Origin: Desulfoglaeba alkanexedens ALDC
GTDB lineage: Bacteria; Desulfobacterota; Syntrophobacteria; Syntrophobacterales; DSM-9756
Direction: 5' to 3'
DNA length: 64,000 nucleotides
NCBI RefSeq assembly: GCF_005377625.1
Contig: NZ_CP040098.1
Location: 1,116,001 to 1,180,000 of the forward strand
Shown: piece after piece, positions 12,500-42,762 of the stretch
Layout: each line of letters opens with the position of its first letter
Position numbering within the stretch: the stretch's first letter is position 1
The notes under the pieces: generated by a model
What the model saw: only the letters and a program-made list of their open reading frames with translations
Databases searched by the model: none
What the model was told of the DNA's origin: nothing
Program-made: the position numbers and the translations under genes

Positions 12500-13740
12500 C
12501 CCCCATCACCCCATAAGCGCTGAGTTGTTTTTGCCCGGTATCGACCGGAAAAAATGAACATCGAACATTGAACGTCCAACATCGAATGGTGAATGGGTGC
12601 GGATCTTTTAGAACGACATCCAGGGTGACCCTCTGAGGTAGATCCAGATGGCCTTGAAGCAGCAAGCGCATCAGCTCCGTTTCCCCTTGTTCCCAAGCTC
12701 CAGCTTGGGAACAAGGTGGATGGTGGAGATTGGGAACAAGGTCAAAAAATCCCCCTCTCCCTTGATGGGAGAGGGTTGGGGTGAGGGTGAGAAAATTAAC
12801 GTATGTCAATCAGTTACATTCCCCTCCCCTTAATCCCCTCCCACAAGGGGAGGGGAAATAGAATTCCCCTCGTTCCCAAGCTCTGGCTTGGGTACGGCGT
12901 CATGGGAACCGAAGCTGGAGCTTCTGCACACTTGTGTTCCCAAGCTGGAGCTTGGGAACAAGAAGCAAAAGATCTGCACCCAATGGTGAATGGGAAATGA
13001 ACATCGAACATTGAACGTCCAACATCGAATGGTGAATGGGAAATGAACATCGAACATTGAACGCCCAACATCGAATGGTGAATGGGAAATGAACATCGAA
13101 CATTGAACGCCCAACATCGAATGGTGAATGGGAAATGAACATCGAACATTGAACGTCCAACATCGAATGGTGAATGGGAAATGAACATCGAACATTTCCA
13201 TCGTTCCCAAGCTCCAGCTTGGGAACGCCCTGCGAGGGAAGCTCCAGCTTCCCTCCTGCTACAGCTGAAACGCGCTGTCTTTCTAGGGATCTCGCCAGGA
13301 TCTCGAAGTGGTCTTTCCCTTCGTTCTCAAGCTCTGGCTTGGAAACGGCCTCACCGAAGCTGGAGCTTCTGCACAGTTGTGTTCCCAATCTGGAGCTTGG
13401 GAACAAGAAACAACCCGGTTTTTCATTCGATGTTGAACGTTCAATGTTCGATGTTCGACGTTCATCTTTAAAAACAACCCAATGGCATAAATGCAACCCG
13501 GTTTCCCTTCGTTCCCAAGCTCTGGCTTGGAAACGGCCTCACCGAAGCTGGAGCTTCTGCACGGTTGTGTTCCCAATCTGGAGCTTGGGAACAAGAAACA
13601 ACCCGGTTTTTCATTCGATGTTGAACGTTCAATGTTCGATGTTCGACGTTCATCTTTAAAAACAACGCAATGGCATAAATGCAACCCGGTTTCCCCTCGT
13701 TCCTAATCTGGATCTTGGGAACGAGGAAAAGGCTCACCTC
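12500..13740. repeat. Repeat island: heptad arrays, palindromes, G-rich repeats
   Basis: It begins at about 12,506 with the same left end as the proA-nadD element (ATAAGCGCTGAGTTGTTTTT). Heptad-type sequence follows at 12,556-12,600; palindromes at 12,689-12,712, 12,872-12,895, 12,936-12,959 and 13,203-13,226, with diverged ones near 13,321, 13,381, 13,511, 13,571 and 13,699; and G-rich repeats near 12,750 and 12,826. The core is a tandem array of a 46-bp unit with four full copies (starts 12,999, 13,045, 13,091, 13,137) and a truncated fifth at 13,183. A segment with the opposite heptad orientation (13,316-13,500) is duplicated almost exactly at 13,506-13,690. Open frames on both strands are repeat-derived and not genes. 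Confidence 0.9.
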
Positions 13741-15554: not shown

Positions 15555-16736
15555 ATGGAAAGCGGGCTTGCGCCGAAAACGCCGGCATTGGATACACGTG
15601 AGGAGGACCAGAGGCTTACCTGGTTCAGCCGGGCGCGGCGGCTTGTGATCAAGATTGGAAGCGCTGTGCTCACGGGCCCCAGGGGCTTGAACCGCGTGGT
15701 GCTTCACCGTCTTTCGGACCAGATCGCCGAACTTCGTGAGAAAGGCCGCGAAGTGGTGATCGTCTCTTCCGGGGCCGTAGCTTCCGGCGTCCGCAAGGTG
15801 GGCCTATCTGAGCGGCCTCGTACGATCCCCCAGAAACAGGCGACGGCCGCCGTCGGGCAGACGGTCCTCATGCAGGCATGGGAAGATGCCTTCGATAAGT
15901 TCGATTTCCTTACGGCTCAAGTGCTTCTGACCAGCGAGGATCTGGTTCAGCGTCACCGTTACCTGAACGCCCGGAACACGCTGCAGACCCTCCTGAACTG
16001 GGGGATCATCCCGGTGATCAATGAAAACGACACGGTAGTGGTGGAAGAGATCAAGTTCGGGGACAACGATCAGCTGTCGGCCCTCATCGCCGGACTCATC
16101 GGGGCGGACCTGGTGATCAACCTCACCGACACGGCGGGACTCTTCGACTGCGACCCGCGCTCCCATGCGGACGCCCACCTGATTCGGGTCGTCCACGGCG
16201 TGGACAGCCGGCTTCTAGCGTGCGCCACGCCCGAGCCGGGTTCCGTGGGGACGGGCGGCATGCTGAGCAAGCTGAACGCGGCCAAGAAGTGCCTGGCATC
16301 CGGTATTCCCATGGTGATCGCACCGGGGAAGGAACGCGACGTGCTCCTGAGGCTGTTCGAAGGGGAAAGCCTGGGAACCCTTTTCGTCCCGCAAAAGCGG
16401 GTATACTCAGGAAAAAAGCTGTGGCTGGCGAACCTTTCGAAGCCCTTGGGCGAACTGATACTCGACGAGGGTGCGGCAAAGGCGCTGACCAACGCGGGAA
16501 AATCGCTTCTTCCCATCGGAATCCGCGAAGTTCGAGGACATTTCGGCGTGGGGGCTCCGGTCCGGTGTGTCGATGAAGCCGGGCAACTGATCGGCATCGG
16601 GCTCACCAATTACAAGTCCAGCGAGATCGAAAAAATCAAGGGCCGCCACAGCGAGGAAATCGAGGCGCTCATCGGTTACAGACATTCGGACGAGGTGATC
16701 CACCGGGACAACTTTGTCCTGGCGGACGAAGCGTGA
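15555..16736 (+). CDS. proB: Glutamate 5-kinase
   Basis: ProB phosphorylates glutamate to gamma-glutamyl phosphate, the first step of proline synthesis. The amino-acid kinase domain runs from about residue 20 ([11 protein letters not shown]) through SSGAVASG and the NENDTV loop to about 270, followed by a C-terminal PUA domain. It has 393 residues when started at ATG 15,555, which has GAGG six bases upstream; a TTG four codons earlier is possible. proA follows 16 bp later. Confidence 0.96.
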
Positions 16737-16752
16737 AGGAGGACGCGAAACG

Positions 16753-18009
16753 ATGAACCATCGGGACAAGGTGCGGACCATGGGGAAACGGGCCAAGGAA
16801 GCGGCCCACGAGATGGCCAAGGCCGGGGACGCCGTCAAGAGGGATTTCCTGGAAGGGACGGCGAAACGGCTGGAATCCGAGCGGCGCCGCATCGCGGAAG
16901 CCAACGACCGGGACATCGAGTCCGGCCGTGAAAAGGGGCTCCCAGACCCGAAACTGGACCGGCTCCGGCTTTCCGACAAGGTTCTGAATGAAATGATGGA
17001 GGGCCTTCGGGAAGTCGCTTTGCTTCCCGACCCCGTGGGCCGAGTGACTTCCATGTGGACGCGGCCGAACGGATTGAGGGTCGGGCGGATGCGGATACCG
17101 TTGGGGGTGGTGGGCATCATCTACGAGTCGCGACCCAATGTGACGGTGGACGCCGCGGCGCTCTGCATCAAGGCGGGAAACGCCGTGATCCTTCGAGGCG
17201 GCTCGGAAGCGTTCCATTCCAACCAGTGCCTGGCAGCGATTCTCCGAGAATCGCTCCGCGCCGCCGGACTTCCGGAAGCGGCGATCCAGGTCATGGAAAC
17301 CACGGAACGGGAAGCGGTCCTGGAAATGCTCCAGCTGGAAGACTGCATCGACGTAATGATCCCGAGGGGCGGCGAGGAACTGATCCGGTTCGTAGCGGCC
17401 AACGCTCGAATGCCCGTCCTCAAGCACTACAAGGGCGTGTGCCACATCTACGTGGATGAAGACGCCGATCCCGACATGGCGGAGGCGCTCTGTATCAACG
17501 CCAAGGTCCAGCGTCCCGCCGTCTGCAACGCCATGGAAACGCTTTTGGTGCACCAAAGGATCGCACCGGAGTTTCTGCCACGGATGGCCGAAGCCTTTCG
17601 GCGCCGCGGAGTGGAACTTCGCGGCTGCCCCGAAACCTGTCGCATCGTTCCCGAATGTCGGCGGGCCGAAGAAGAAGACTGGAGCGCCGAATACCTGGAC
17701 CTTATCCTGGCGGTTCGAGTCGTTCCGGACATGGATGCGGCCATCGCTCACATCGCTCGGTATGGATCCAACCATACGGAAGCCATCGTGACCCGAAACT
17801 ACGAGCGGGCCCACCGATTCGTGCAGGAGGTTCAGTCTTCGCTGGTCATGGTGAATGCGTCCACGCGTTTCAACGACGGGTATCAGCTGGGTCTGGGCGC
17901 CGAGATCGGCATATCCACTTCGCGGCTTCACGCTTTCGGTCCCATGGGCGTCGAGGAACTCACCACTACCAAGTTCGTCGCTTTCGGCAACGGCCAGGTG
18001 CGGGTGTGA
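16753..18009 (+). CDS. proA: Gamma-glutamyl phosphate reductase
   Basis: ProA reduces the ProB product with NADPH to glutamate semialdehyde, which cyclises on the way to proline. The 418-residue protein has the aldehyde-dehydrogenase fold, with the catalytic cysteine in [16 protein letters not shown] and a C-terminal [20 protein letters not shown] segment. AAGGAGG lies about ten bases before the ATG. The stop codon lies inside the 13-bp direct repeat that flanks the downstream insertion, so the end of proA remains intact. Confidence 0.97.
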
Positions 18010-18014
18010 GGACC
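18002..18014 (+). repeat. Left copy of a 13-bp direct repeat flanking the heptad element
   Basis: GGGTGTGAGGACC here is repeated exactly at 18,863-18,875. The copies bracket the insertion between proA and nadD like a target-site duplication. The left copy contains the proA stop codon. Confidence 0.85.
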
Positions 18015-18055
18015 ATAAGCGCTAAGTTGTTTTGGCCGGTATCGACTGGAAAAAT

Positions 18056-18476
18056 GAACATTGAACATTGAACATTGAACGTCCAACATCGAATGCTGAA
18101 TGAGAAATGAACATCGAACGTCCAACGTCGAATGGTGAATGAGAAATGAACATCGAACATCGAACGTCCAACGTCGAATGGTGAATGAGAAATGAACATC
18201 GAACATCGAACGTCCAACATCGAATGCTGAATGAGAAATGAACATCGAACATCGAACGTCCAACATCGAATGCTGAATGAGAAATGAACATCGAACATCG
18301 AACATCCAACATCGAATGGTGAATGGGAAATGAACATCGAACATCGAACGTCCAACATCGAATGGTGAATGGGAAATGAACATCGAACATCGAACGTCCA
18401 ACATCGAATGGTGAATGGGAAATGAACATCGAACATCGAACATTGAACGTCCAACGTCGAATGCTGAATGGGAAAA
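18056..18476 (+). repeat. Tandem array, 46-bp unit built from heptads
   Basis: Nine units start at 18,056, 18,109, 18,148, 18,194, 18,240, 18,286, 18,332, 18,378 and 18,424. Their lengths are 53, 39, six times 46, and 53, which differ by exactly 7. Each is a run of xAAC/TxxG-type heptads such as GAACATC, CAACATC and GAATGGT plus a closing AAAT. Confidence 0.93.
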
Positions 18477-18625
18477 AAGGAACTTAGGGAGACCCAGAGA
18501 TGGTTAAAACTTATTCAGTGTGTACCACTAATCAAAAAACCCAAACTACCCGTCGTTCCCAAGCTGGAGCTTGGGAACGAGAAGCAAACAACCCAACGGC
18601 ATAAATGCAACCCGGTTTTTTTCAT

Positions 18626-18797
<172 letters not shown>

Positions 18798-18862
18798 CTT
18801 TAAAAACAACCCAATGGCATAAATGCAACCCGTGAATGCTTACAAAATAACTTAGCGCTTAT

Positions 18863-18875
18863 GGGTGTGAGGACC
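18863..18875 (+). repeat. Right copy of the 13-bp direct repeat
   Basis: GGGTGTGAGGACC, identical to 18,002-18,014. It ends one base before the nadD ATG and supplies the GTGAGG that probably acts as the nadD ribosome-binding site. Confidence 0.85.
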
Positions 18876-18876
18876 G

Positions 18877-19563
18877 ATGGAACTCGAGCGATTCCGCCGG
18901 CTGGGCGTCTTGGGGGGAACCTTCAACCCGATCCACCTGGGACACCTCAGGGGTGCGGAAGAAGCCCTGGAGTTGCTGCAATTGGATCTCTGCCTTTTTG
19001 TCCCGGCCTGGATTCCTCCTCACAAGACAGATGAAACGGTCACCTCTTTCAAGCACCGACTACGCATGTTGGAACTGGCCGTGGAGGGCCATCCCCGCTT
19101 TCGGGTATCCGACCTGGAGGAGCGCCTCGGGGGGAAGTCCTACACCGTGAGGACCCTGGAGGCCATCCGAAGGGAAGTTCCAGCGCGGGCAAGGCTGTTT
19201 TTCCTGGTGGGTTCCGACGCTTTTTTTGACATTCACACCTGGTGGCACTACCGGGAGATCTTTCGCCTCGCGTCGGTGGGCGTGCTCCGCCGGCCGGGAC
19301 ACGACGAAGGCCGCGTCGAAGAGTATCTGCGGCGCCACATCGACACCGCTTGCCTTTGGAACGACGATTTCCGGCGTTTTCAAACTTCGATGTGCCAGCC
19401 CATCCACTTTCTGCAAACCACGCACTTGGATATCGCCTCGTCGGACATCCGACGAAGGCTCCGAAACGGAAACTCCATAAGATATCTGGTCCCCAGGGAG
19501 GTCCTGGATTATATTCAAAGAGAAAACATTTACGGGATTCCCGGGGAGGCAACCCGTGACTGA
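18877..19563 (+). CDS. nadD: Nicotinate-nucleotide adenylyltransferase
   Basis: NadD adenylates nicotinate mononucleotide to deamido-NAD in the NAD pathway. The 228-residue protein has the nucleotidyl-transferase signature GGTFNPIHLGHL near the start and ISSSDIR-like IASSDIRRRL near the end. The start is fixed by the direct repeat supplying GTGAGG upstream. It forms a block with rsfS and the M48 protease, separated from proBA by the repeat element. Confidence 0.95.
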   Translation: MELERFRRLGVLGGTFNPIHLGHLRGAEEALELLQLDLCLFVPAWIPPHKTDETVTSFKHRLRMLELAVEGHPRFRVSDLEERLGGKSYTVRTLEAIRREVPARARLFFLVGSDAFFDIHTWWHYREIFRLASVGVLRRPGHDEGRVEEYLRRHIDTACLWNDDFRRFQTSMCQPIHFLQTTHLDIASSDIRRRLRNGNSIRYLVPREVLDYIQRENIYGIPGEATRD

Positions 19564-42411: not shown

Positions 42412-42480
42412 TGCCCGTTTCACCCAACGGTTTTCGCCCAGCCGCCGGTCCTCACCGCGAAGACGCGGCCGGCAGTTTGT

Positions 42481-42726
42481 TGCAGGCAGGTTTTCTGACT
42501 CTCGGATTCTCCTACCGGCTGCGCCTTCCCACCGGGCGCCCAACCTCCAACCCCCTCGAACTTCGAAACGCACCGTGGTATTCCAAAGGGTGCGCTCCGC
42601 CGAGTGAGCTCTTAAGCGGTCAAGCGCCCGCCAGTGGCCTTCCTGCAGCCTTCGTCCCCGATCACAGCGGCGGGCCCGTTCCCGATTTGCACGGGATTCC
42701 CTCTTGAACCTTTCGGCACCTGCAAC
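42481..42726 (-). promoter_or_regulatory. Cobalamin riboswitch
   Basis: Reading the minus strand in order: GGTGCC (42,715-42,720), AAGAGGGAATCCCGTG, GGGAACGGGCCCGCCGCTGT, GCCACTG, a GGGAAGGC segment, and the B12 box AGTCAGAAAACCTGCC next to 42,481. These are the conserved core elements of the AdoCbl/cobalamin aptamer in the correct order. It lies about 200 bp upstream of btuB. Confidence 0.95.
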
Positions 42727-42732
42727 GATTGG

Positions 42733-42762
42733 TTCCTACCAAGATGCTCTATCGGTTGTCAA
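42733..42762 (-). promoter_or_regulatory. Probable promoter of the btu operon
   Basis: On the minus strand TTGACA (42,757-42,762), an 18-bp spacer and TAGGAA preceded by TGG (an extended -10) end just before the aptamer. Confidence 0.5.

Follow-up and report, generated by a model that had tools for sequence, protein, structure and literature searches.

The tandem array at 18055-18475 of the window (the whole 64-kb stretch of DNA that was analysed) very probably represents the left arm, enlarged by amplification, of an 850-bp MITE-like transposable element that is decayed and non-autonomous, and forms part of a wider pattern of heptad arms around PF05635 genes. Rather than standing alone as a satellite, the array forms the left arm of an insertion located at 18014-18863 between proA and nadD (Table 1). 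The terminal inverted repeats of the insertion comprise 20 bp (CATAAGCGCTAAGTTRTTTT), 19 of which match between the two ends. In several relatives from the same family nadD begins within a few bases of the proA stop codon and the whole insert is absent, which identifies the 850-bp stretch as an insertion. Terminal inverted repeats, a target duplication of fixed length and the presence of several copies, without an own transposase, are traits of MITEs and other non-autonomous transposable elements, and all of them are observed here. A minisatellite born in place through slippage during replication, independently of any transposable element, would account for the clean tandem build with its two unit levels. 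Such an origin is, however, extremely improbable in view of the terminal repeats, the 11-bp target duplication, the mirror array and the gene scrap, as well as about 20 more copies with the same ends and the relatives devoid of the entire insert; the element boundaries rule out a free-standing satellite.

Table 1. Features of the insertion between proA and nadD and of a second copy in the window
Feature	Position	Strand	Basis or remark
proA, upstream neighbour	16714..18009	+	
Target-site duplication, left copy GGTGTGAGGAC, 11 bp	18003..18013	.	overlaps proA stop codon; flank identity 11/11
Left terminal inverted repeat CATAAGCGCTAAGTTGTTTT	18014..18033	+	sequence
Left arm, 53-39-46x6-53 bp, amplified 46-bp IVP leader (heptads + GAAA)	18055..18475	+	TRF, unit parse
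PF05635 (IVP) gene scrap	18479..18550	+	same stretch inside intact gene of copy 986564-987444
Palindromic module CGTTCCCAAGCTGGAGCTTGGGAACG	18554..18579	.	common to other copies
Right arm, inverted heptad array (TTCGATG), mirrors left arm	18625..18795	-	TRF; pairs with left arm in fold
Right terminal inverted repeat AAAATAACTTAGCGCTTATG	18844..18863	-	
Target-site duplication, right copy GGTGTGAGGAC	18864..18874	.	flank comparison
nadD, downstream neighbour	18877..19563	+	immediately after proA in several family relatives
Second, decayed copy: left terminal repeat CATAAGCGCTGAGTTGTTTT	12512..12531	+	
Second copy: 46-bp leader array	12982..13196	+	TRF; four full 46-bp units from 12998 and part units

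Unit-by-unit parsing of the array (best span 18055-18475) yielded lengths of 53, 39, six times 46 and 53 bp, in agreement with the original prediction, the start and end of which lie one base late: the first unit measures 53 bp if begun at 18055 and 52 bp if begun at 18056. Each unit consists of 7, 5, 6 or 7 heptads followed by GAAA, so that length always changes by complete heptads. That the same 46-bp unit also builds the array near 12,999 was confirmed (TRF span 12982-13196). Overall, TRF detected tandem repeats in the 64-kb window solely at these two arrays and in their immediate surroundings, including the mirror-image heptad array (18625-18795), which is absent from the original prediction. 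A search for RNA families gave no match at the array; elsewhere in the window, a cobalamin riboswitch was observed at 42468-42738 on the minus strand. Since repeats are hard to assemble and the exact copy number derives solely from the assembly, copy number and unit lengths might represent an assembly artefact. This is very unlikely, as the ordered units differ by distinct point variants and many copies of other lengths were assembled in the same single contig.

The nature of the unit becomes apparent from other copies of the element. The copy at 986,564-987,444 harbours an intact gene of 121 amino acids between its heptad arms, assigned on the basis of profiles to the four-helix-bundle family PF05635/TIGR02436 (23S rRNA intervening-sequence protein, IVP or S23p) with 54.7 bits (cut-off 33.8) and 89.7 bits (cut-off 24), respectively. 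Among gene copies of three genomes dN/dS amounts to about 0.2 (NG86; 0.046/0.257, 0.064/0.316 and 0.053/0.260), indicating that the IVP protein has been under selection. In foreign elements TGAACATCGAACATCGAACGTCCAACATCGAATGTTGAATGGGAAA, corresponding to the 46-bp unit, occurs singly and immediately 5' of the gene start AGATGAAGAAACAG; at L043, L121, L128 and L153 the single leader before ATGAAGAAACAG shows zero mismatch to the consensus. The 46-bp unit is a pre-formed leader (six heptads plus GAAA) that directly precedes the start codon of the IVP gene. Its single occurrence before the gene elsewhere explains both repeat levels by copying of the whole leader and by gain or loss of single heptads. 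The copies in the own genome separate the two levels: they have either a single leader of 14-32 heptads or a solitary leader of the plain 46-bp form. The latter was found in one copy, the window copy has nine leaders, and the left arms of other copies contain 6 to 32 heptads within one leader. The two levels are thus two growth modes of one pre-formed leader. Growth by 46-bp blocks and by single 7-bp steps had been predicted and stands, while the identity of the unit as the leader of an IVP gene in a transposable element had been missed. Slippage is plausible as the mutational step for the array, and unequal recombination fits the 46-bp level equally well. In the copy at 2979206-2980020 (L026) it is the right arm itself that is amplified, in about six larger units of ~80 bp; macro-unit copying occurs on the right arm, too.

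About 20 copies of the element are present in the own genome, one of which carries an intact gene. Searching the genome (one contig, 3.37 Mb) with the terminal-repeat pattern, also given as CATAAGCGCTAAGTT, at up to 3 mismatches returned 34 matches, and the reversed control pattern none. Among 36 complete elements (12 from the own genome and 24 from foreign genomes), flank identity reaches a sharp maximum of 0.737 at precisely 11 bp (permuted mean 0.328, maximum 0.419); 21 of the 36 share at least 80% flank identity over 11 bp and 10 are exact. Element lengths range from 139 to 1197 bp, and only the PF05635 gene or its remains were recognised inside. For the second copy in the window (left end 12,512) a right end was not found by the terminal-repeat pattern. 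The palindromic module CGTTCCCAAGCTSSAGCTTGGGAACG (18554-18579) was found repeatedly inside and outside element copies and perhaps constitutes a separate small repeat family inserting into the elements. Additionally, the same flank together with the same element end was observed near both contig ends (25738 and 3365205; L009 and L028), which may overlap.

The ancestral element would have comprised, in this order, a terminal repeat, the 46-bp leader (six heptads followed by GAAA), the PF05635 gene, inverted heptads and a second terminal repeat. In the window copy an internal deletion would have taken out most of the IVP gene, and the leader would have been duplicated in tandem as a 46-bp block, with single heptads added or lost alongside; growth of the array may have proceeded via slippage or unequal recombination. 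Mobilisation was presumably effected in trans by a DDE transposase, possibly IS4-like, as judged from the length of the target duplication only. A transposase with these ends was found neither among the 16 PF01609 matches of the own genome nor inside 119 foreign stretches bearing the element ends. Recurrent ORFs inside foreign terminal repeats were considered as partner and discarded; those inspected resemble ordinary neighbour genes (isochorismate-synthase-like and argininosuccinate-synthase-like, as named by eye). Elements with terminal repeats and target duplications are also found (nearly) without heptads (L084, L041 and L089), L084 having both ends, 10 of 11 duplication bases and no heptads. 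Heptads are accordingly dispensable for movement, which seems to require the ends.

Other genomes contain at least 119 stretches with exact element ends; most of these belong to Desulfobacterota, others to Schekmanbacteria, Nitrospinia, Brocadiaceae, SAR324, Glassbacteria and archaeal bins, which may be contaminated. Among 97 genomes drawn as relatives, ends with at most 1 mismatch occur in four, i.e. the own genome and three of the same class; no further genome from its family or order has them. This scarcity among close relatives suggests horizontal spread of the element.

Heptad arms are not restricted to elements with these ends. Three of seven other PF05635 genes of the own genome, all lacking the ends, are flanked by heptad arrays upstream and downstream, the heptad being different in each case; at one own-genome gene (L182) the two arms differ from each other. 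Among PF05635 genes of Desulfobacterota (n = 77; the top entries of lists ranked by score, not a random sample, with the flanks playing no part in selection), arrays of period 7, called at 18 of 21 self-matches, were present upstream in 19/73 and downstream in 30/77, compared to 6 or fewer for any other period from 4 to 12. In far flanks at a distance of 670-1000 bp, which are mostly coding sequence, period 7 was found in 5/72 and 5/75 (Fisher p 0.003 upstream and 2e-6 downstream). The heptad sequence varies from gene to gene, yet both arms of one gene match. For 30 genes with both arms at a looser cut (16 of 21), the downstream arm agreed with the reverse complement of its own upstream arm in 17.1 of 21 positions on average, as opposed to 10.7 for other pairs and 11.2 in direct orientation; the observed value was reached in none of 20,000 permutations.

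PF05635 genes of other phyla show similar matched arms of period 7. These were found on plasmids of Nostoc edaphicum, Pseudanabaena galeata, Geminocystis, Anabaena sp. 90, Calothrix and Nostoc ATCC 53789, and in weaker form on those of Stanieria, Riemerella and Azospirillum. Within 50 kb of the Anabaena sp. 90 plasmid, the sole two strong heptad arrays flank the PF05635 gene. Picosynechococcus, Leptolyngbya and Gemmatirosa (L294, L304, L299 set) have period 8 instead of 7, the repeats of Gemmatirosa (L299) apparently in direct orientation. About half of the PF05635 genes are without clear heptad arms at the thresholds applied. Several plasmid genes of this family are located between neighbours resembling one operon; some were observed between cas6/cas4 or cmr2/cmr3 in CRISPR operons of cyanobacterial plasmids (L298 983-1351, L296 989-1348, L294 983-1339). 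The original prediction mentions heptanucleotide repeats of cyanobacteria; the relatives and carriers of the element itself are Desulfobacterota, not cyanobacteria, though cyanobacterial PF05635 genes bear like arms. These statistics support the claim that PF05635 genes are often bracketed by inverted heptad arms that match each other, in Desulfobacterota and Cyanobacteriota as well as in other phyla. More tentatively, and with some doubt prevailing, such genes could constitute a phylum-spanning class of small mobile cassettes for which period 7 and arm match, not any fixed sequence, are the defining traits. Remains of these cassettes would be a main source of the heptanucleotide repeats that lack an explanation in cyanobacteria, xanthomonads and elsewhere among bacteria.

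With respect to the role of the arms, their pairing as RNA surpassed every one of 20 dinucleotide-shuffled controls in 74 of 115 genes, compared to 9 of 104 far flanks. In 55/115 genes the two own arms paired better with each other than with 20 randomly chosen partners; far-flank energies from that run are not comparable due to differing base composition, hence the shuffle control. The window element is predicted to fold into one hairpin (-356.6 versus -222.4 +/- 9.7 kcal/mol, z -13.9). Together with the insert of Coxiella that is cut by RNase III, the pairing statistics and the window fold favour a long hairpin formed by the arms, the gene occupying its loop in the manner of 23S rRNA intervening sequences; such pairing is the most likely role of the arms, with a probability approaching an even chance. 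Alternatively, the heptads could serve as binding sites (iterons) of the IVP or a host protein, one protein reading both arms and pairing being a by-product. Purifying selection on the gene between the arms would agree with such sites, as would the own heptad sequence of every gene, matched on both sides; binding sites would, however, be expected to change jointly with the protein, and the heptad sequence shifts freely while the protein family is conserved. This function is rated as rather unlikely. Inverted tandem arrays are prone to copying of one arm onto the other, and likeness of the arms might therefore be purely mutational and functionless, arising from template switching or conversion between inverted arrays. 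Decayed copies without gene, which still show matched arms, would conform to this origin; the preference for period 7 among 4-12 is hard to explain by mutation alone, and this period returns with unrelated sequences in many phyla, so that a purely mutational likeness is rather unlikely as well.

Mobile insertion cassettes and IS4-family MITEs (MIC231) have inverted ends, target duplications of ~10-12 bp and a passenger gene, and lack a transposase. The window element resembles MIC231-type cassettes in ends, duplication and passenger gene; in the present case, no IS4 transposase bearing such ends came to light. A precedent for a minisatellite inside a MITE is BrickBuilt of Porphyromonas gingivalis, which has inverted-repeat ends and 19 intergenic genome copies (PMC4596501), and with which the window element shares the nesting of a tandem repeat between inverted ends. 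In contrast to BrickBuilt, which has a 23-bp unit and for which the abstract describes no gene (PMC4596501), the present element possesses heptads, mirrored arms, an 11-bp duplication and, in full-length form, a PF05635 gene. Likewise known are heptamers before the gene of the 23S rRNA intervening sequence (IVS) of Coxiella burnetii: this IVS carries the S23p gene, is excised by RNase III and has been called a selfish element, and two or three tandem heptamers (GACAGAT), varying in number between strains, are located just upstream of the gene (PMC4990558). Both systems share the PF05635 family and heptamers before the gene. An IVS is, however, defined by its location in a 23S rRNA helix, from which it is excised by RNase III in Coxiella, whereas the window element sits between the protein genes proA and nadD and has transposon-type ends. 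Apart from the Coxiella heptamers, no paper that makes a general connection between PF05635 genes and matched inverted heptads was found in the mainly open-access literature searched.

Heptameric repeats of Xanthomonas and Nostoc, described with a G-rich focus, often form nearby convergent inverted pairs, 70-75 of which were reported for Xanthomonas (PMC4692102); the STRR repeats of cyanobacteria are heptamer arrays that were likewise compared. The text of the Xanthomonas and Nostoc paper mentions neither S23 nor four-helix (PMC4692102). Next to a definite origin of the nested 46/7 repeat, the present results connect a widespread, functionally uncharacterised gene family with a repeat class said to be short of detailed literature (PMC4692102). 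If the arm-match rule is general, it points to a constraint on a very common small cassette that does not depend on sequence (pairing or self-recognition), and it makes the origin of heptad repeats in bacteria directly testable. Arms flanking PF05635 genes may be where many such puzzling 7-bp repeats come from.
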